A stretch of DNA of 64,000 nt from Demequina sp. NBRC 110054 (lineage in GTDB: Bacteria > Actinomycetota > Actinomycetes > Actinomycetales > Demequinaceae): the NCBI RefSeq assembly GCF_002090115.1, contig NZ_BBRK01000005.1, positions 372,001 to 436,000 on the forward strand. Reading direction: 5' to 3'. Position 1 is the stretch's first letter. Every line of letters begins with the position of its first letter. The position numbers and the translations under genes are program-made. The notes below the pieces were generated by a model. That model saw only the letters and a list, made by a program, of their open reading frames with translations. It was not told the origin of the DNA and made no database searches. Below are positions 15,193 to 50,757 of this stretch, in pieces.

Positions 15193-16626
15193 TTAGGCCT
15201 CGACCTCGCTGCGGTCACCGGACCACAGCGTGTGGAAGGTGCCCTCGACGTCGACGCGCTTGTAGGTGTGCGCCCCGAAGAAGTCGCGCTGACCCTGGAT
15301 CAGCGCGGCCGGCAGACGCTCCGCGCGCAGCGCGTCGTAGTACGCGAGCGACGAGGAGAACGCGGGCGTGGGAACGCCGCTGAGCGCGGCCTGCGACACG
15401 ATGCGGCGCCACGCGCCGACGCCGCCGCACAGGACGTCCGAGAAGTACGGGTCCACGAGCAGCGAGGCGAGATCGCCGTCGCGCTCGTAGGCCTCGGTGA
15501 TGCGGTTGAGGAACTGCGCGCGGATGATGCAGCCGCCGCGCCAGATGCGGGCCATCGCGCCACGGTCGATGTCCCAGCCGAACTCCTCGGAGGCCGCCTG
15601 GATCTGGTCGAAGCCCTGCGCGTACGCGACGACCTTCGACGCGTAGAGCGCGAGCCGCACGTCCTCGATGAAGCCCTCGCGGTTGACGATGTGCCAGTCG
15701 CCGGTCGAGGCGGACAACACGTCGCGCGCGGCCTCGCGCTGGGCGATCTGGCTCGAGATCGCACGGGCGAAGGTCGCCTCGGCGATGCCCGTCACGGGAA
15801 CGCCGAGGTCGAGCGCGCTCTGCACGGTCCAGCGGCCAGTGCCCTTCTGACCGGCCTGGTCCGCGATGACGTCCACAAGCGGCTTGCCCGTCTTCGCGTC
15901 GACCTGCTTCAGGACCTCCGCGGTGATCTCGATGAGGAACGACTCGAGGTCGCCGTCGTTCCACTCGGCGAAGATCTCACCGATCTCAGCGGGAGTCAGG
16001 TGGAGCGCCTCACGAAGCACCTGGTATGCCTCGCCGATCAGCTGCATGTCGGCGTACTCGATGCCGTTGTGGACCATCTTCACGAAGTGGCCCGCGCCGT
16101 CGGGGCCGACGTGGGTGCAGCACGGCACGCCATCGACCTTGGCGGAGATCTTCTCGAGGATCGGGCCGAGCGTCTCGTAGGACGCCGCGGGTCCGCCGGG
16201 CATGATCGACGGGCCGAGCAGCGCGCCCTCCTCGCCTCCCGACACGCCGCAGCCGACGAAGTGGAGGCCCTTCTCGCGCAGCGCGGCCTCGCGCCGACGC
16301 GTGTCGGGGAAGTGGGCGTTGCCCGCGTCCACGATGACGTCCCCCTCCTCAAGGAGCGGGATCAGCGAGTCGATCACCGCGTCGGTGGCCGCGCCCGCCT
16401 GCACCATGATCACGATCTTGCGCGGGCGCTCGAGCGCGGCGACGAAGTCCTCGAGCGACTCGCAGCCGACGAAGTCGCCCTCCTCTCCGTGCTCCTCCAG
16501 AAGTGACGTCATCTTCTGCGGCGAACGGTTGTGGACAGCGACGGTGAAGCCGTTGCGCGCGAAGTTGCGGGCCAGGTTGCGACCCATGACCGCGAGCCCG
16601 GTCACACCGATCTGAGCGAGGGACAT
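15193..16626 (-). CDS. gndA: 6-phosphogluconate dehydrogenase, decarboxylating
   Basis: Oxidative pentose phosphate enzyme: 6-phosphogluconate + NADP to ribulose-5-phosphate + CO2 + NADPH. 477 aa, the full length of the long (Gnd) type. The Rossmann motif is GLAVMGRNLARNFA, the substrate signature is GVSGGEEGALLGPSIMPGG, and the catalytic lysine is in GHFVKMVHNGIEYADM. ATG 16626 follows AAGGAAGTGCT. It is first in an apparent two-gene unit with the ATP-grasp ligase. Confidence 0.96.
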   Translation of the reverse strand: MSLAQIGVTGLAVMGRNLARNFARNGFTVAVHNRSPQKMTSLLEEHGEEGDFVGCESLEDFVAALERPRKIVIMVQAGAATDAVIDSLIPLLEEGDVIVDAGNAHFPDTRRREAALREKGLHFVGCGVSGGEEGALLGPSIMPGGPAASYETLGPILEKISAKVDGVPCCTHVGPDGAGHFVKMVHNGIEYADMQLIGEAYQVLREALHLTPAEIGEIFAEWNDGDLESFLIEITAEVLKQVDAKTGKPLVDVIADQAGQKGTGRWTVQSALDLGVPVTGIAEATFARAISSQIAQREAARDVLSASTGDWHIVNREGFIEDVRLALYASKVVAYAQGFDQIQAASEEFGWDIDRGAMARIWRGGCIIRAQFLNRITEAYERDGDLASLLVDPYFSDVLCGGVGAWRRIVSQAALSGVPTPAFSSSLAYYDALRAERLPAALIQGQRDFFGAHTYKRVDVEGTFHTLWSGDRSEVEA

Positions 16627-38805: not shown

Positions 38806-39216
38806 TCAGCGCCCGACGCGCCTGCGCCAGTCGACAACCCTCCGGATGCGCTCGCGCTGGACCGCGTTGCCGATGCGCTCGATGACGAGCGCCGCAAGCG
38901 CCCCCGCCACCGCAGCCGCGGCGGGGATCCACGTGAACAGCGCCGCGACCCCCACGACGACCATCGCGATGATCGGCCACAGCAGCCCCCACACCGGCGC
39001 ATGCGTGCTCTCGATCACCGACAGCTCCGACTGGAAGTCGAGCTCGCGATCCGTGTCGAGCAGCTCGTCCTCAAGCACGAGGCACCGCTTGGGAAGGCCG
39101 ATGAGCGAGTGGTGCCGGAGCACGTGGCGCGAGCCTTCGGGGTTGACCCGCGGCGACGAGTGGTAGCCGTGGGGGTGCGCCGCGCACAGCGCGGGGTTGG
39201 GGCCGGTGGTGGTCAT
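38806..39216 (-). CDS. Small membrane protein downstream of parE
   Basis: 136 aa, unrecognised. It has a soluble N-terminal 75 residues rich in His (HPHGYHSSP, HVLRHHSLIG), two adjacent hydrophobic segments (about 78-115), and a basic C-terminus (QRERIRRVVDWRRRVGR). Its ATG overlaps the parE stop (ATGA), so it is co-translated with the topoisomerase subunit. The gap 38700-38805 to thrE holds nothing clear. Confidence 0.75.
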   Translation of the reverse strand: MTTTGPNPALCAAHPHGYHSSPRVNPEGSRHVLRHHSLIGLPKRCLVLEDELLDTDRELDFQSELSVIESTHAPVWGLLWPIIAMVVVGVAALFTWIPAAAAVAGALAALVIERIGNAVQRERIRRVVDWRRRVGR

Positions 39217-41309
39217 GCGTCGATCCTCGAGTGGTCCAGGTCGGCGGCGCCGGCGACGATGAAGTCGCGGCGCGGGCCGACGTCGTTGCCCATGAGCAGC
39301 TCGAACACGCGCTCGGCCGCCTGTGCGTCCGCCGCGGTGATGCGGCGCAAGGTGCGGTGCTCGGGGTCCATGGTGGTCTCCGCGAGCTGATCCGCGTCCA
39401 TCTCCCCCAGGCCCTTGTAGCGCTGGATGTCCTCCTTGTACTTGCGGCCCGCGCGCTTGAGATCGCGAAGCGTCTCGGTGAGCTCCTTCTCCGAGTACGT
39501 GTAGATGTACTCGCGCTCACGACGCGCGGAGCCCATCACCTCGACGCGGTGCAGCGGCGGCACCGCGGCGTAGACGCGGCCAGCGTCCACCATGGGGCGC
39601 ATGTAGCGGAAGAACAGCGTCAGCAGGAGCGTGCGGATGTGCGCGCCGTCGACGTCCGCGTCGGTCATGAGGATGATCTTGCCGTAGCGCGCCTGCTCCA
39701 GGTCGAACGTGCGACCGGATCCCGCGCCGATCACCTGGATGATGCTTGCGCACTCGGCGTTGTGGAGCATGTCGGTGATCGACGCCTTCTGGACGTTGAG
39801 GATCTTGCCTCGGATCGGCAGGAGCGCCTGGAAGTCCGAGCGTCGCGCGAGCTTCGCGGTGCCGAGGGCGCTGTCACCCTCGACGATGAAGAGCTCGGAC
39901 GACTCGACGTCGTTGCTGCGGCAGTCGGCGAGCTTCGCGGGCAGCGACGAGGTCTCGAGCGCATTCTTGCGGCGCGAGATCTCCTTCTGCTTGCGGGCGG
40001 CGACGCGCGCGCGCATCTCGGCAATGATCTTCTCCATCACGATGGTGGCCTGAGCCTTGTCATCGCGCTTGGTGGAGCCCATGATCGCGCCGAGCTCGGT
40101 CTCGACGACCTTGGAGACGATGCCGCGCACGGGGGTCGTGCCCAGCACCTCCTTGGTCTGTCCCTCGAACTGGGGCTCGGGGATGCGCACCGTGACGACG
40201 GCGGTGAGGCCCGCCATGATGTCGTCCTTCTCGATGCGCTCCGCGCCGTCCTTGCCGGTGAGCTTGAGGCGACGCGCGTTGGCCTCGATGACCTTGCGCA
40301 TCGCCTTGACCAGCCCCTGCTCGAAGCCGGACTGATGGGTGCCGCCCTTGGGGGTCGAGATGATGTTGACGAAGCTGCGGACCTCGGACTCGTAGCCCTT
40401 GCCCCACCTCAGCGCGACATCGACGACGCAGTTGCGCTCGACCTCCTCGCTCACGAGGTGACCGTTGGCCTTCAGGACGGGCACCGTCTCCTTGTAGGTG
40501 GCTTCGCCTCGGAGCTCCCACGTCGCCGTGACGGCCGCATCGGGCGCCACGTAGTCGACGAAGTCCTTGGCGCCGCCGTCGAACTTGAAGGTCTCCTCGG
40601 TCGGCTCGAGCGGGTTGCGCTCGTCGCGCACCACGAGCTGCAGCCCAGGGACGAGGAAGGCGGTCTGGCGGGCGCGCGTCAGCAGGTCCTCATAGGAGAA
40701 CGACGCCGACTTGTTGAAGATCTGCCGGTCCGCCCAGTAGCGTGTGCGAGTTCCCGTCCGCGCCTTCGCGACCTTGCCGACGACGTTGAGCTCGGAGCCC
40801 GTGACGAACGGCGTGAACTCAGCCTGGGGGGTCGGTCCGGACGCGGGGTCGGCGAAGTAGCCGGGCTCGCCGCGCCTGAAGGCCATGTGGTGGGTCTTGC
40901 CGCCACGGTCCACCCACACGTCGAGGCGCTCCGAGAGCGCATTGACGACCGACGCGCCGACGCCGTGGAGACCGCCGGAGGCGGCGTACGAGCCGCCGCC
41001 GAACTTGCCTCCCGCGTGCAGCTTGGTCATGACGACCTCGACGCCCGTGAGGCCGGTCTTGGGCTCGACGTCCACCGGGATGCCGCGACCGTTGTCACGC
41101 ACCTCCACGGAGTCGTCGGGGTGCAGGATCACGTCGATGCGGTCGCCGAAGCCTCCGAGCGCCTCGTCGACGGAGTTGTCGATGATCTCCCAGAGACAGT
41201 GCATGAGGCCCCGCGAATCGGTCGTGCCGATGTACATGCCGGGGCGCTTGCGCACCGCCTCGAGGCCTTCGAGGACGGAGAGGTGGCGTGCCGAGTAGTC
41301 AGAACTCAC
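39213..41309 (-). CDS. parE: Type IIA topoisomerase subunit B (ParE-like)
   Basis: 698-aa ATPase subunit. The GHKL domain has WEIIDNSVDEALGG, VRDNGRGIPV and GGLHGVGASVVNALS; the transducer domain follows, then the TOPRIM domain with LFIVEGDSALG, LPIRGKILNVQKA and MTDADVDGAHIRTLLLTLF, and the tail GEMDADQLAETTMDPEHR. GTG 41309 lies 6 nt after a TAGAAT box and lacks a Shine-Dalgarno, so the message may be leaderless. Gyrase versus topoisomerase IV assignment rests on pairing with the nearby ParC-like subunit. Confidence 0.92.
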   Translation of the reverse strand: MSSDYSARHLSVLEGLEAVRKRPGMYIGTTDSRGLMHCLWEIIDNSVDEALGGFGDRIDVILHPDDSVEVRDNGRGIPVDVEPKTGLTGVEVVMTKLHAGGKFGGGSYAASGGLHGVGASVVNALSERLDVWVDRGGKTHHMAFRRGEPGYFADPASGPTPQAEFTPFVTGSELNVVGKVAKARTGTRTRYWADRQIFNKSASFSYEDLLTRARQTAFLVPGLQLVVRDERNPLEPTEETFKFDGGAKDFVDYVAPDAAVTATWELRGEATYKETVPVLKANGHLVSEEVERNCVVDVALRWGKGYESEVRSFVNIISTPKGGTHQSGFEQGLVKAMRKVIEANARRLKLTGKDGAERIEKDDIMAGLTAVVTVRIPEPQFEGQTKEVLGTTPVRGIVSKVVETELGAIMGSTKRDDKAQATIVMEKIIAEMRARVAARKQKEISRRKNALETSSLPAKLADCRSNDVESSELFIVEGDSALGTAKLARRSDFQALLPIRGKILNVQKASITDMLHNAECASIIQVIGAGSGRTFDLEQARYGKIILMTDADVDGAHIRTLLLTLFFRYMRPMVDAGRVYAAVPPLHRVEVMGSARREREYIYTYSEKELTETLRDLKRAGRKYKEDIQRYKGLGEMDADQLAETTMDPEHRTLRRITAADAQAAERVFELLMGNDVGPRRDFIVAGAADLDHSRIDA

Positions 41310-41382: not shown

Positions 41383-41880
41383 CTACTGCGTCGGTCGGCG
41401 CCGCACGTGCGTCATGGCGATGTTGTCGCTCTTCACGAAGAAGCCGAGCTCCTCGTAGATCTCGCGCCCCATCGGCGAGGCGTGGAGCTCGACGACCTCG
41501 ATGCCCCGCGCACTCGTCTCCTCGAGCAGCGCCTTCATCACCGCGTGGGCATACCCCTTGCGCTGGTGCTGCGGCGCGGTCGACACCCATTGGACATAGG
41601 CCACCTCGTGCGACGTCGCGCCAGGACGCGGCAGACGCGGTCCGATGTTCACGAGACCGCAGCACGCGAGTCCGCCCTCAGGAGCATCGATGACGATCCC
41701 GATGAGGTCCTTGCCGAGGCGCGTGCGCACGGTGCGGGTCGACTCTGCGGCCCACTGCGGCGTCGGCTTCGCGCCCACCGCCTTGTACATGAGCGCGCCG
41801 AGATGGACGATCTCCGCCGCGTCGGACGCGACGGCCTGTCTCACGCGCGGCTCAGCGCCACGCGACCGCGACGATGACAT
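41383..41880 (-). CDS. GNAT-family N-acetyltransferase
   Basis: 165-aa acetyl-CoA-dependent acyltransferase. The GNAT core shows EVAYVQWVSTAPQHQRKGYAHAVMKALLEE (motif A, Q/RxxGxG/A type) and VVELHASPMGREIYEELGF. Substrate unknown. ATG 41880 gives a 29-bp overlap with the upstream membrane-protein gene. GTG 41844 (VRQAVASDAAEI) would remove the overlap and is a reasonable alternative. Confidence 0.85.
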   Translation of the reverse strand: MSSSRSRGAEPRVRQAVASDAAEIVHLGALMYKAVGAKPTPQWAAESTRTVRTRLGKDLIGIVIDAPEGGLACCGLVNIGPRLPRPGATSHEVAYVQWVSTAPQHQRKGYAHAVMKALLEETSARGIEVVELHASPMGREIYEELGFFVKSDNIAMTHVRRRPTQ

Positions 41881-42202
41881 TCAGGATCGTGAGCCCTCCG
41901 ATGGTGGCCCAGACGGGAACCGCGACGGACTCCTTCTTGCGGTTGACGATGACGAGCACCGCGACGGCGAGCGCCACGAGCAGCTTGACGGTGATCTTGC
42001 CGTTGTCGACGTGATCGCCGTTGCCGCTGCCGTAGGCCACGCCCACGAGCGCGACGCCGGTGACGAGCATCGTCAACGCGCCGTGGAACATCCCCGACGG
42101 AAGAGTCTTGACCTTGTCCTTCATCGTGTAGAGGAAGCCGCCCAGCAGGGAGGCAAGCCCCAGGAAGTGCAGGATGAGCAGCACAATCCTCAGAATCGTC
42201 AC
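41852..42202 (-). CDS. Small integral membrane protein
   Basis: 116 aa with four hydrophobic segments (starting VTILRIVLLILHFLGLASLL; later GALTMLVTGVALVGVAYG, KLLVALAVAVLVIV, AVPVWATIGGLTILNVIV). Resembles widespread small actinobacterial membrane proteins of unknown role. GTG 42202 follows AGGAG with 8-nt spacing. Probably co-transcribed with the GNAT gene. Confidence 0.8.
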   Translation of the reverse strand: MTILRIVLLILHFLGLASLLGGFLYTMKDKVKTLPSGMFHGALTMLVTGVALVGVAYGSGNGDHVDNGKITVKLLVALAVAVLVIVNRKKESVAVPVWATIGGLTILNVIVAVAWR

Positions 42203-42333
42203 GGGGGTCGCTCCTTCACTCGGATCGCGGGCGCCGGGGACCCGGTCGCTCCTTCTCGCATCGATGCTAGTGCCAGGAGCGTCGCTCAGCGCGCAGGTGC
42301 CGCCGTCATCCCACAGGCTCGGCCGGCGCCCCA

Positions 42334-42339
42334 TAGTCT
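42334..42339 (+). promoter_or_regulatory. -10 box for leaderless eamA mRNA
   Basis: TAGTCT, 6 nt before GTG 42346; the same hexamer is used for DUF3000. Confidence 0.5.
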
Positions 42340-42345
42340 GGGCCG

Positions 42346-43335
42346 GTGAACGACTCCGCGGCGATGCGCCGCTCCCCCGCGCTCGGCGCCGCCTTCGTCC
42401 TCACGGGGGCGTTCCTGTTCGGCTTCAACGGCTCGATGACCAAGGTCGTCATGCAGGCCGGCATCTCACCCGAGCAGCTGACACTCATGCGCGTGCTCGG
42501 CACCGCGCTCATCGCTGGCACGGTGCTGCTGCTCACCGACCGTTCGCAGTTCCGGGTGTCGCGCACGGACCTGGGCAGGTTCGCCGCGCTGGGAATCGGC
42601 GGGCTCGCGCTCGTCCAGTGGCTCTACGCGGTCGCGATCAAGCATCTGCCCGTCGGAGTCGCGCTGCTGTTCGAGTACATGGCGGTCATCATCGTGGCCG
42701 TCGTCGCGCGGGTGGTGTTCAAGGAGAGCGTGCATCCGCGGCTGTGGTGGGCGATCGGCGCGGTGCTCGTCGGGCTCGCGGTCGTCGCCGAGGTGTGGGA
42801 CTCCTCGCTGTCGCTGCTCGGCGTCGCCGCCGGTCTCGGAGCGGCATGCGCCTACGCGTTCTACTTCCTTGCGGGCGAACGGTCCGTTGCAGGCAGACCA
42901 CCGATGGCGGTCGCCTTCTGGGCCTCGACCTTCGCGACGGCCTTCTGGCTCGTGTTCTCTGGCTGGTGGACGATGCCCGGCGGGACCTTCACCGCGGACG
43001 TGTCCTTCGGGGGCGCGCTGGACAGCATCGTGACGCCCATGTGGGTACCGCTGGTCGCCATGGTCTCGCTCGGCGCATTCGCGCCGTTCACGCTGATCTT
43101 CATGTCGCTGCGCCACATCAGCGCGACGGCCTCGGGGATCCTCGCGTCGTCCGAGGTGCTCTTCGCGTTCACCGTCGCCTGGCTGTGGCTCGGAGAGACG
43201 CTCGAGCCGCTCCAGGTCGCAGGCGCCGCGGTCGTGTTCGTCGGTATCGTCGTCGCGCAGACGGCGCGAGAGAGGCCCTCCCAAGCCGATCCGGACGACG
43301 CGTTCGCGCTCGCCGTCCCGCCGGAGGCCCCCTAG
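42346..43335 (+). CDS. EamA/DMT-family transporter
   Basis: 329-aa drug/metabolite transporter with ten predicted membrane segments in two EamA repeats (about 15-150 and 165-295): GAFLFGFNGSMTKVVMQAG, VQWLYAVAIKHLPVGVALLFEY, and MSLRHISATASGILASSEVLFAFTVAWLWLGE. Members export amino acids and related metabolites; the substrate here is unknown. GTG 42346 is inferred to be leaderless. It is convergent with the hydrolase-like gene, 4 bp apart. Confidence 0.9.
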   Translation: MNDSAAMRRSPALGAAFVLTGAFLFGFNGSMTKVVMQAGISPEQLTLMRVLGTALIAGTVLLLTDRSQFRVSRTDLGRFAALGIGGLALVQWLYAVAIKHLPVGVALLFEYMAVIIVAVVARVVFKESVHPRLWWAIGAVLVGLAVVAEVWDSSLSLLGVAAGLGAACAYAFYFLAGERSVAGRPPMAVAFWASTFATAFWLVFSGWWTMPGGTFTADVSFGGALDSIVTPMWVPLVAMVSLGAFAPFTLIFMSLRHISATASGILASSEVLFAFTVAWLWLGETLEPLQVAGAAVVFVGIVVAQTARERPSQADPDDAFALAVPPEAP

Positions 43336-43339
43336 CCGA

Positions 43340-44245
43340 TCACAGGGGGTTGAGCGCCGCGGCGACGTCGCGCAGGCGCCTTCCGACTCCGATCCTCGCG
43401 TGGGTCTCGAGCATCGTGCCAGAACCTGGTGACACACGCGTGCGCGCGCGTCCGGGATGCGAGGACTCGACCGACTCCAGCAGCTCGCGCAGCGATGGCT
43501 GTGCACCAAGCGCGTGATACTCGTCGATCAACTGCTCGCGTGAGCTGCCGTCGAGCGCGGTCGCGAGGTCGTTGTTCCGCTCCCCCGCGCGCAGAAGCTT
43601 GTCGACCTGCTTGGCGGCCTGCGCGCGATCGCTCATGTCCGCGCTGAACGGAAACATCGTGCTGTGCTGACGGATCGGCAACGGCTGAAGCTCGACTCGA
43701 GGCCCCAGGACACGGCGCGCCTGGGCGGACTCGTCTGGAGCCTTGGCGGGGTACACGAGGCGCGCGAAGAGATTGTCGAGGTCGGGGACGCGGATCCTGC
43801 CATGCCGCGCCAGGTCCGCGGCGAGATCGGGCTCTGTCTCGGCCCGCCGCATGAGCGCGTGGTATCCAGCGAACGGGACTGACTCGTCGTAGGGCAGCAA
43901 CGCGGTTCGGGGGCTGAACGCGAGAGCGGTCACGAGGACCTCGGGCGCGCTGCGCGCAACGAGCGACGCCCACAGCAGCGCGCCGGTGCCGCCCTTGCTG
44001 CCACCGATGAAGGAGAGCTCGGACACGTTCCGCGCACGGATCCAATGGACGAGCTGGCTCGCGGCCTCGTCAGCCGAACGCATGAAGTAGGTCGTCGGGC
44101 CCGGCTCGTAGACGCTGAGGAACGGCGAGTCGAAGGACCGTCGCTGGAAGACGGGGCGCGCGGTCTGCGAGAGCGCCACGACGAGGCGGCTCCGACGCGT
44201 TCCCTCGTGGCGATAGACGTAGTCGACGTGCGGGAGGTCGATCAT
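43340..44245 (-). CDS. Alpha/beta-hydrolase-like protein of unknown function
   Basis: 301 aa, no assigned family. A nucleophile-elbow-like motif occurs in LSFIGGSKGGTGALLWASLV (G-x-S-x-G, serine near residue 83), preceded by a beta strand and followed by an alanine-rich helix as in alpha/beta hydrolases. A later LQPLPIRQHSTMFPF contains a candidate histidine. No signal peptide. This gene begins the least conserved stretch of the window. Catalytic activity is inference. Confidence 0.7.
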   Translation of the reverse strand: MIDLPHVDYVYRHEGTRRSRLVVALSQTARPVFQRRSFDSPFLSVYEPGPTTYFMRSADEAASQLVHWIRARNVSELSFIGGSKGGTGALLWASLVARSAPEVLVTALAFSPRTALLPYDESVPFAGYHALMRRAETEPDLAADLARHGRIRVPDLDNLFARLVYPAKAPDESAQARRVLGPRVELQPLPIRQHSTMFPFSADMSDRAQAAKQVDKLLRAGERNNDLATALDGSSREQLIDEYHALGAQPSLRELLESVESSHPGRARTRVSPGSGTMLETHARIGVGRRLRDVAAALNPL

Positions 44246-44450
44246 CGGCAGATCCGGCCGTCGTCACGGGACACGGCGAAGACGCTAGTCGACGCTCGCC
44301 CGAATGTGAAGCATCTCACACGCCGGAAGGCCGCCCTGAGCGCTCTTCTTCCACACCCGAGCGCGCCGCCCCAGGGTCCCTGGCGCCACCAGGTGCCGCC
44401 TCTAGGGTGGGCGATACACCAGGGGCGCGAGGGCAAGGGGGAACACGGCC

Positions 44451-45142
44451 ATGAGTCGCGAGGAACAGCGCGCAGCGAAGCAGCGTGAGAGGGACGCCGC
44501 GTAGGAGGAGCGGATGCGCACGCGTGCCGCAGAGCGTGCCGCCCGCCAGGACGCGCGGGGCAGGGGCGTCCCCTACATGGCGGGGCATGCGGTACCCGCC
44601 GCGCGAAACCTGAGCCCCGACGCGGCGCTCTTCCGCGCGGGGGCGCACACCATCAAGGTCGAGATCGCGACGGGCGCCCAGGTGCTGTACGTCGGGAAGC
44701 GCGGCCTCGAGCTGACTCGCAGGAGCAGCGTCGAGGGCGAGCGGCTCCCCTGGTCGGACATCACCGACCTGGTGGTCGAGGGTCCTGAGAACGTAGAGAG
44801 GACTGTCTCCGGCGCACGCGTGCTCGCCCTTGGCATGCTCGCGCTCGCCGCGCCCAAGAACACCTCGTCGAGGCGATCATCGTGAAGCTCGACGGTGGCG
44901 TGCGACGGACGCTCACCGCGCGGGGGCTCACCGCCCCACAGGTGCGGGCCACCGTCGCTCTGCATCGTCCGTCCGTGGCCCCGGTCAAGGAGGGCGCCCG
45001 CCCCGCGACGGAGCTCAACGAAGCCGAGGACGTTCCGAGGGCGCTCGAGCAGCTCGCGCGGATCCACAGCGACGGGATGCTCTCACTCGAGGAGTTCGCA
45101 CGGGCGAATGCGCTCGTTCCCGGGCCTCAGGCACCGGCGTAG
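44451..45142 (+). pseudogene. Degraded PH-like/SHOCT-domain gene (in-frame TAG and frameshift)
   Basis: Two reading frames read as one protein. From ATG 44451 a charged helix (MSREEQRAAKQRERDAA) hits TAG at 44502-44504 and continues in frame as EERMRTRAAERAARQD. The frame then encodes a PH-like beta domain (AQVLYVGKRGLELTRRS...LPWSDITDLVVEGPENVE). Near 44857-44862 the frame is lost; the protein continues one frame over as HLVEAIIVKLDGGVRRTLTARGL and ends with a SHOCT-like motif (LEQLARIHSDGMLSLEEFARAN). One missing base explains the shift. Separate intact ORFs are 44514-44885 and 44882-45142. GGAGGAG before ATG 44514 means translation could restart there. Confidence 0.65.
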
Positions 45143-45152
45143 GCGGCGGATA

Positions 45153-45164
45153 GGGAGATCTCCC
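45153..45164. repeat. 12-bp perfect palindrome
   Basis: GGGAGATCTCCC, lying between the broken gene and the small ORF at 45246. It could be an operator half or simply chance. Confidence 0.3.
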
Positions 45165-45245
45165 GATGCGCCGGCGCGACCTCAGGGCGCATGCTCGCCT
45201 CACGCGGCGCACCACCTGACGCGGCGCGAAAGAGGGGAGCTCATC

Positions 45246-45458
45246 ATGGACCAGCTGGTCAGCATGTCATGGACGCAGGCGCGACCGACGTCGGCCGAGT
45301 TGTCAGAAGCCGCATCGGTCGCATTCGAACGCAAGCAACGCTCGGCCGGCTCCGCGCCGACGACCGCACGCCGCGGACGACGCCCTCGCCTGGTCGAGCG
45401 GTGGCACGCCTTCACCCACACCGGATTCCACCGGCACGGGACGGCTGGCGTGCACTGA
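45246..45458 (+). CDS. Small hypothetical protein
   Basis: 70-aa basic protein, unrecognised, with no membrane segment. It ends in a His-rich stretch (RWHAFTHTGFHRHGTAGVH). ATG 45246 has GAGGGGAG 7 nt upstream, the main support for it being real. It lies before the LuxR-type regulator on the same strand; the 217 bp between (45459-45675) show no gene or clear promoter. Confidence 0.45.
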   Translation: MDQLVSMSWTQARPTSAELSEAASVAFERKQRSAGSAPTTARRGRRPRLVERWHAFTHTGFHRHGTAGVH

Positions 45459-49572: not shown

Positions 49573-50757
49573 TCAGTCCAGGTAGTCGCGCAGAACCTGC
49601 GAGCGCGACGGGTGACGCAGCTTCGACATGGTCTTCGACTCGATCTGGCGGATTCGCTCGCGGGTCACACCGAACACGCGGCCGATCTCGTCGAGCGTCT
49701 TCGGCTGGCCGTCGGTGAGCCCGAAACGCATGCCGACGACGCCGGCCTCGCGCTCCGAGAGCGTGTCCATGACCTTCGAGAGCTCCTCCTGGAGAAGCGT
49801 GAAGCCCACCGCGTCCGCGGGGACGACCGCCTCGGAGTCCTCGATGAGGTCTCCGAACTCCGAGTCGCCGTCCTCGCCCAGCGGGGTGTGGAGCGAGATG
49901 GGCTCGCGGCCGTACTTCTGGACCTCGACGACCTTCTCGGGCGTCATGTCGAGCTCCTTGGCGAGCTCCTCGGGCGTGGGCTCACGACCCAGGTCCTGAA
50001 GCATCTGGCGCTGCACGCGCGCGAGCTTGTTGATGACCTCGACCATGTGCACAGGGATGCGGATGGTGCGGGCCTGGTCCGCCATCGCGCGGGTGATCGC
50101 CTGACGGATCCACCACGTCGCGTAGGTCGAGAACTTGTAGCCCTTGGTGTAGTCGAACTTCTCGACGGCGCGGATGAGGCCGAGGTTGCCCTCCTGGATC
50201 AGGTCCAGGAACAGCATGCCGCGACCCGTGTAGCGCTTGGCGAGCGAGACCACGAGGCGCAGGTTGGCCTCAAGGAGGTGGTTCTTCGCGTGGCGTCCGT
50301 CGTTCGCGATCCACTCGAGCTCGCGACGGAGCTTCGGAGCGATCTTGTCGCCCGAGGCGAGCTTCTCCTCCGCGAACAGGCCCGCCTCGATGCGCTTCGC
50401 GAGGTCGACCTCCTGCTCGGCGTTGAGGAGCGCGACCTTTCCGATCTGCTTGAGGTAGTCCTTGACCGGGTCCGCGGTGGCGCCCGCGGTCGTCACCTGC
50501 TGCACAGGCGCGTCGTCGTCGGCGCGGTCGAGGACGAAGCCGGACTTCGAGTCCTCTTCCTCCTCCTTGACCTCGTCCGGGCCCTTCTCGTCCGCGAGAT
50601 CGTTCTGCGGCTCGTCGGAGTCGATGTCCTTGGCCTTGGCGGTGGACTTCGGCGCTGCCTTCTTAGCCGTGGAGGCGGCCTTCGAAGCCGTCTTCCTCGC
50701 GGTGGGCTTCTTCGCTGCGGTGGTCGTGGCGTTCTCCTTCGTCGTGTCGCCCGGCAT
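49573..50757 (-). CDS. sigA: RNA polymerase principal sigma factor (RpoD/SigA/HrdB)
   Basis: 394 aa. After a Lys/Ala-rich N-terminus (about 1-45) and an acidic stretch come region 1.2 ([22 protein letters not shown]), region 2 ([56 protein letters not shown], the housekeeping signature), region 3 and region 4 ([30 protein letters not shown]). All core functions depend on it. ATG 50757. The upstream region carries a SigR/SigH-type promoter motif, suggesting it is also boosted by disulfide or heat stress. Confidence 0.97.

Follow-up and report, generated by a model that had tools for sequence, protein, structure and literature searches.

A probable, recently inactivated gene for a helix, PH-like and SHOCT protein in Demequina sp. 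NBRC 110054

Bacterial proteins with PH-like domains have been described as forming rings, and that report includes one structure with a C-terminal helical hairpin (Xu et al., 2010; PMC2817789). The SHOCT domain accompanies the bacterial PH domain (PF03703) in nine proteins according to the SHOCT paper, in which a test of oligomerisation did not support such a role for SHOCT (PMC3581485). A PSP paper predicts that SHOCT-like domains serve as protein anchors on the membrane's inner face (PMC11237479). These three papers allow only a general guess at the role of an intact protein of the kind considered here: going by domain type only, it is probably a sub-membrane or protein-binding scaffold. 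A narrow literature search on Demequina pseudogenes and on SHOCT with pleckstrin homology returned nothing on this gene.

We analysed a window of 64,000 nucleotides from Demequina sp. NBRC 110054 (contig NZ_BBRK01000005.1, positions 372,001 to 436,000, forward strand). Between 44451 and 45142 of its plus strand, one protein is spread over two frames (Table 1). Frame 0 opens at ATG 44451, meets a TAG at 44502-44504, holds an in-frame ATG at 44514, which is preceded by TAGGAGGAGCGG, and closes at TGA 44883-44885. The second frame is open from 44789, the two overlap over 94 nt (44789-44882), and the stop of the first shares a GTGA with the start of the second at 44882-44885. A sequence-only reading had mapped the first ATG, the TAG, ATG 44514, the TGA and the second ORF (44882-45142), and we recovered every one of them at the same position. 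Judged from sequence comparison, the locus is very probably a real but ordinary pseudogene, recently inactivated, of a protein composed of a helix, a PH-like domain and a SHOCT end.

Table 1. Positions in the window of the probable pseudogene, its parts and the surrounding genes
Feature	Position	Strand	Remark
GyrB/ParE-type gene	39213-41309	-	named by eye
GNAT acetyltransferase	41383-41880	-	
Small membrane protein	within 41852-42334	-	
EamA transporter	42346-43335	+	
Segment absent from the sister genome G038 (16-17 nt there)	43336-45149	.	301-aa ORF and broken gene
Intact 301-aa ORF, possible alpha/beta hydrolase	43340-44245	-	GGSKGG by eye; Pfam ABHD18 only at E 0.11
Disrupted PH-like/SHOCT gene (probable pseudogene)	44451-45142	+	original start to last stop
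First 17 codons, charged helix, ahead of the in-frame stop	44451-44501	+	aligns to the relatives' N-terminus
In-frame TAG	44502-44504	+	sense codon in both relatives at that column
GAGGAGCGG; with the AG just before, AGGAGG, Shine-Dalgarno-like, ahead of ATG 44514	44505-44513	+	
123-aa open frame	44514-44885	+	remaining helix, PH-like strands 1-5, next loop, then 8 off-frame residues
Frame-change stretch, net one base fewer than both relatives	44859-44881	+	
Second open frame, 86 aa	44882-45142	+	end of PH-like domain and SHOCT-like C-terminus
70-aa ORF	45246-45458	+	
Large AAA/LuxR-type regulator	ends 48645	+	

Unbroken versions of the gene, each 229 aa in a single frame, are present in Demequina gelatinilytica NBRC 109390 (L065) and D. 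mangrovi NBRC 105856 (L066), that is, in 2 of 43 congeners, and are 71% identical to each other. Of 98 other genomes, two, both Demequina, match the 123-aa piece (44514-44885) at E <= 0.001, with E values of 1.0e-9 and 3.0e-9 against the two intact relatives; a contig scan with this piece alone found no relative. Both pieces align, in order, to one relative, the D. gelatinilytica protein being 32% identical over 111 residues of the first piece and 39% over 69 of the second, and the second piece matches one relative at E 4e-8 in a two-sequence comparison. The short peptide before the TAG also resembles the relatives' N-terminus: 17 of 5000 shuffles scored as high for one relative and 93 of 5000 for the other. 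A profile built from the two relatives and the first piece, with neither the second piece nor the pre-TAG stretch included, covers the window copy at positions 3-154, reading through one TAG, and at positions 144-228 in the other frame. Its score at positions 3-154 is partly a matter of construction because the first piece is in the profile; the profile, built without the second piece, nonetheless finds 44843-45124 (positions 144-228) at E 2.1e-4. By these sequence comparisons, the homology in two frames is greater than chance would give.

The same profile matches 28 of 44 genomes, most of its length being covered only in the window's genome (G000), G019 and G037; G042 covers positions 135-228, and the remaining matched genomes only those from position 167 on. 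When the search was widened, with the best 9 candidates scored per genome, matches came from at least 59 of 296 genomes and were almost all confined to the SHOCT region. The exceptions were G000, G235 (93-228), G173 (119-210), G255 (109-208) and G365 (7-91, with four stops). In a sample of the phylum, 2 of 395 other genomes matched. Other genomes from the same class and phylum, and IMG/VR contigs, hold more distant relatives that share an RVTATRL..G.FAFA.KK-like core. Those on the IMG/VR virus or prophage contigs (L091-L106) are relatives of the PH-like domain, several of them with a SHOCT-like end by eye.

The proteins of D. gelatinilytica and D. mangrovi have the same domain order and N-terminal charged helix as the window copy. 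With a 14-row alignment (13 other rows), the intact D. gelatinilytica protein was modelled at a pLDDT of 77.5, an earlier three-sequence model having been poor (56.3). The model begins with a helix (8-48), which is followed by seven strands that lie between 77 and 168 (77-83, 86-93, 96-100, 108-111, 115-122, 152-158 and 164-168), by a helix that closes the fold (173-183) and by a hairpin (196-226), and is weakest at 132-144, where pLDDT is under 50, and at 190-193. For this intact relative only, the model shows the fold of the PH-like superfamily, a seven-strand barrel capped by a C-terminal helix, a barrel it shares with the bacterial PH-like domains of PMC2817789. Residues 70-191 scored best against the PH-like lobe of the merlin FERM domain (Z 10.5, 91 residues, 3.0 Å), followed by the PH domains of p62 (Z 9.2) and TAPP1 (Z 8.9); a Foldseek search of the PDB with the model gave no match at E <= 0.001. 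When Pfam, NCBIfam, PADLOC and the PDB were searched by sequence, in libraries that varied by protein, no family rose above cut-off for the PH part, and the bacterial PH families of Pfam matched none of the proteins P0001, P0002, P0003, P0004, P0005, L089 and L090. In a viral library, the two matches at E <= 0.001 were to a phage tape measure protein and to an entry named 'Bacterial PH domain protein'. It is the relative's predicted fold, and not a Pfam sequence match, that supports the PH assignment. Both relatives exceed the Pfam cut-off for SHOCT (PF09851; 29.1 and 34.8 bits against 27), and the SHOCT hairpin is modelled in the intact relative at 196-210/216-226. In contrast, the C-terminal piece of the window copy stays below that cut-off (12.8 bits), so we count it as SHOCT by homology only. 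The order of charged helix, PH-like domain and SHOCT-like end proposed from the letters alone is thus borne out in the relatives, by the model and, for SHOCT, by Pfam.

The first break may be harmless, because ATG 44514 has a strong Shine-Dalgarno sequence and corresponds to a Met kept in both relatives. The Shine-Dalgarno energy there is -10.2 kcal/mol, against -10.3 for ATG 44451, and only 1 of 67 internal ATG or GTG codons in two neighbouring genes has one as strong. The AG of the TAG itself forms part of the AGGAGG that lies 5 nt ahead of ATG 44514. Taken alone, the first break could be tolerated; the rescue by ATG 44514 that had been proposed for it is plausible, and does not cover the second break.

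That second break lies about 350 nt beyond the early stop. Frame 0 tracks the relatives up to a shared Lys codon (44856-44858). Between the end of that codon and a shared stretch that starts at 44927 lie 68 nt in the window, against 69 in each relative, which makes the net change one base. This alignment with intact homologues was the check named beforehand for the claim of one missing base, which stands as a net count; the change lies somewhere within about 44859-44881, and the site first put forward (44857-44862) overlaps the start of that interval. In the model the frame change falls between strands 5 and 6 of the PH-like fold. It cuts the PH domain, since GTG 44882 maps to about residue 156, inside the strand 152-158. 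With a cut within the domain and no slippery heptamer, the second break is harder to tolerate.

Ribosomes starting at ATG 44451 would make a peptide of 17 residues, those starting at ATG 44514 a product of 123 residues that would end before the last two PH strands, and a restart at GTG 44882 would yield a piece of 86 residues whose first ones already belong to strand 6. Function has most likely been lost, as no predicted product holds a complete PH domain. The frame is disrupted relative to intact relatives, one mark of a pseudogene. The earlier view that two lesions mark a decaying gene stands because the relatives, of the same genus, read in one unbroken frame and lack both the stop and the frame change, the domain order is right, and the net difference at the second site is one base. 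GC content by codon position is of the coding type in frame 0 ahead of the shift (0.76/0.55/0.89); past the shift it is so in the second frame (0.80/0.50/0.84) and not in frame 0 (0.54/0.84/0.80). Third-position GC is 0.85-0.93 in five neighbours and 0.77 over the 17 codons that precede the TAG. The breaks look recent because this coding-type bias persists in the expected frames. High coding bias would equally fit a gene still in use.

Persistent codon bias would also be expected if the gene were intact and one or both sites were errors of sequencing or assembly, and the breaks are known from one assembly of high-GC DNA (3.35 Mb in 6 contigs). We regard such an error as unlikely, because 38 of 42 matched ORFs of the sister genome (G038) are without a break and the other four are read as artefacts. 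For this comparison, we used the 53 of 172 ORFs that had a coding-type GC profile; 42 of them matched the window and 11 did not, and 38 of the 42 showed neither stop nor frame change. Two of the four flagged ORFs (s5 and s100) have stops that lie upstream of the starts, at 50757 (-) and 27129 (+), of intact ORFs, and the other two (s126 and s136) run antisense to genes that are intact, at 15193-16626 (-) and 39213-41309 (-) respectively; in our reading of the sequences, all four would be antisense or upstream-extension artefacts. A first, unfiltered comparison had flagged 9 of 43 regions; among the seven flags inspected (s8 and s132 were outside the inspection), the ORFs around three read as antisense to real genes or as upstream extensions. 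Two errors within 692 nt, one of them a substitution, would be unusual, and the stretch around the shift (44751-44921) has no homopolymer of 4 or more. Among congeners, stops or frame changes interrupt the GyrB/ParE-type gene of G008 and of G041, which suggests poor sequence in those genomes rather than biology.

It is still less probable that the locus works as a split gene, with ATG 44514 giving a 123-aa protein and GTG 44882 an 86-aa partner coupled to it through the GTGA overlap. The strong Shine-Dalgarno sequence of ATG 44514, the overlap itself and the codon bias kept in both frames would suit such a pair. The site at GTG 44882 is middling (-6.3), stronger than the ORF-annotated starts of three neighbouring genes (EamA -2.4, ParE -2.7, 301-aa ORF -3.3) and weaker than that of a fourth (GNAT -10.0), so some re-initiation there is possible. 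Yet 14 of 67 internal start-like codons are as strong, and the GTGA overlap is expected by chance: one-base deletions simulated in five neighbouring genes produced such a stop/start overlap in 4378 of 6440 cases. The split, moreover, falls inside PH strand 6 and not at a domain border, and the two full-length relatives are single-frame. A bolder variant, to which we give slightly less credence again, has the first break repair itself, a single change having shut off the original start while creating another; the locus would then be a newborn two-gene unit encoding a two-chain assembly of PH strands and SHOCT. Least credible is the programmed -1 frameshifting that had been offered as an alternative, yielding one fused and one short product: the 94-nt overlap and the net shift of -1 would allow it, but we found no in-frame X XXY YYZ heptamer in 44784-44885, the protein is read from a single frame in the two intact relatives, and the upstream TAG would remain unexplained.

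We favour the pseudogene, and its surroundings bear on how it came to be there. Both relatives' genes are divergent to a membrane-protein gene that is also present in the neighbourhood of the window copy, and the D. mangrovi gene is followed by a LuxR-type gene, as in the window. Unlike in these two relatives, the EamA gene and the 301-aa ORF separate the window copy from the membrane-protein gene. In the sister genome G038, whose ParE-type protein is 97% identical to the window's, a segment of about 1.8 kb is missing: the EamA stop is followed by 16-17 nt and then by the sequence of the window from 45149 on. The broken gene is dispensable in this sister since the whole segment is absent there. 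A tree of the ParE-type protein, covering 21 genomes, pairs G000 with G038 as sisters (support 95/91) and puts the two genomes with the intact gene in another clade. No long repeats were found flanking 43336-45149.

The loci of 20 of the 43 congeners were compared. A gain of the segment is favoured by the 301-aa neighbour, which was found in 0 of 43 other Demequina congeners and in 0 of 395 other genomes sampled in the order, with the best 5 candidates scored per genome. This neighbour fell into no family above cut-off when searched against Pfam, NCBIfam, PADLOC and the PDB, in libraries that varied by protein. An old presence with repeated loss is favoured because two distant congeners carry the PH-SHOCT gene by the same membrane-protein gene. 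Gain here followed by decay and old presence with many losses both fit.

Just beyond the segment, at 45150-45167, lies the palindrome-like ATAGGGAGATCTCCCGAT, upstream of the 70-aa ORF and the LuxR-type regulator. Closely similar versions of it stand near the LuxR-type genes of the sister G038 and of G027, and its spaced pattern occurs once in the whole genome; it is possibly an operator of the LuxR-type regulator. The 70-aa ORF has a Shine-Dalgarno sequence, matches no Pfam family and shares 47 of 70 residues with G038. Over its first 30 codons, the differences from G038 number 6, 4 and 8 by codon position, with little third-position bias.

In a high-GC genome, a neat overlap of stop and start codons should not be read as evidence that a gene pair was designed, given how often simulated one-base deletions create one (4378/6440). 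Although of slight importance by itself, the locus offers a clean example of an accessory gene early in decay.
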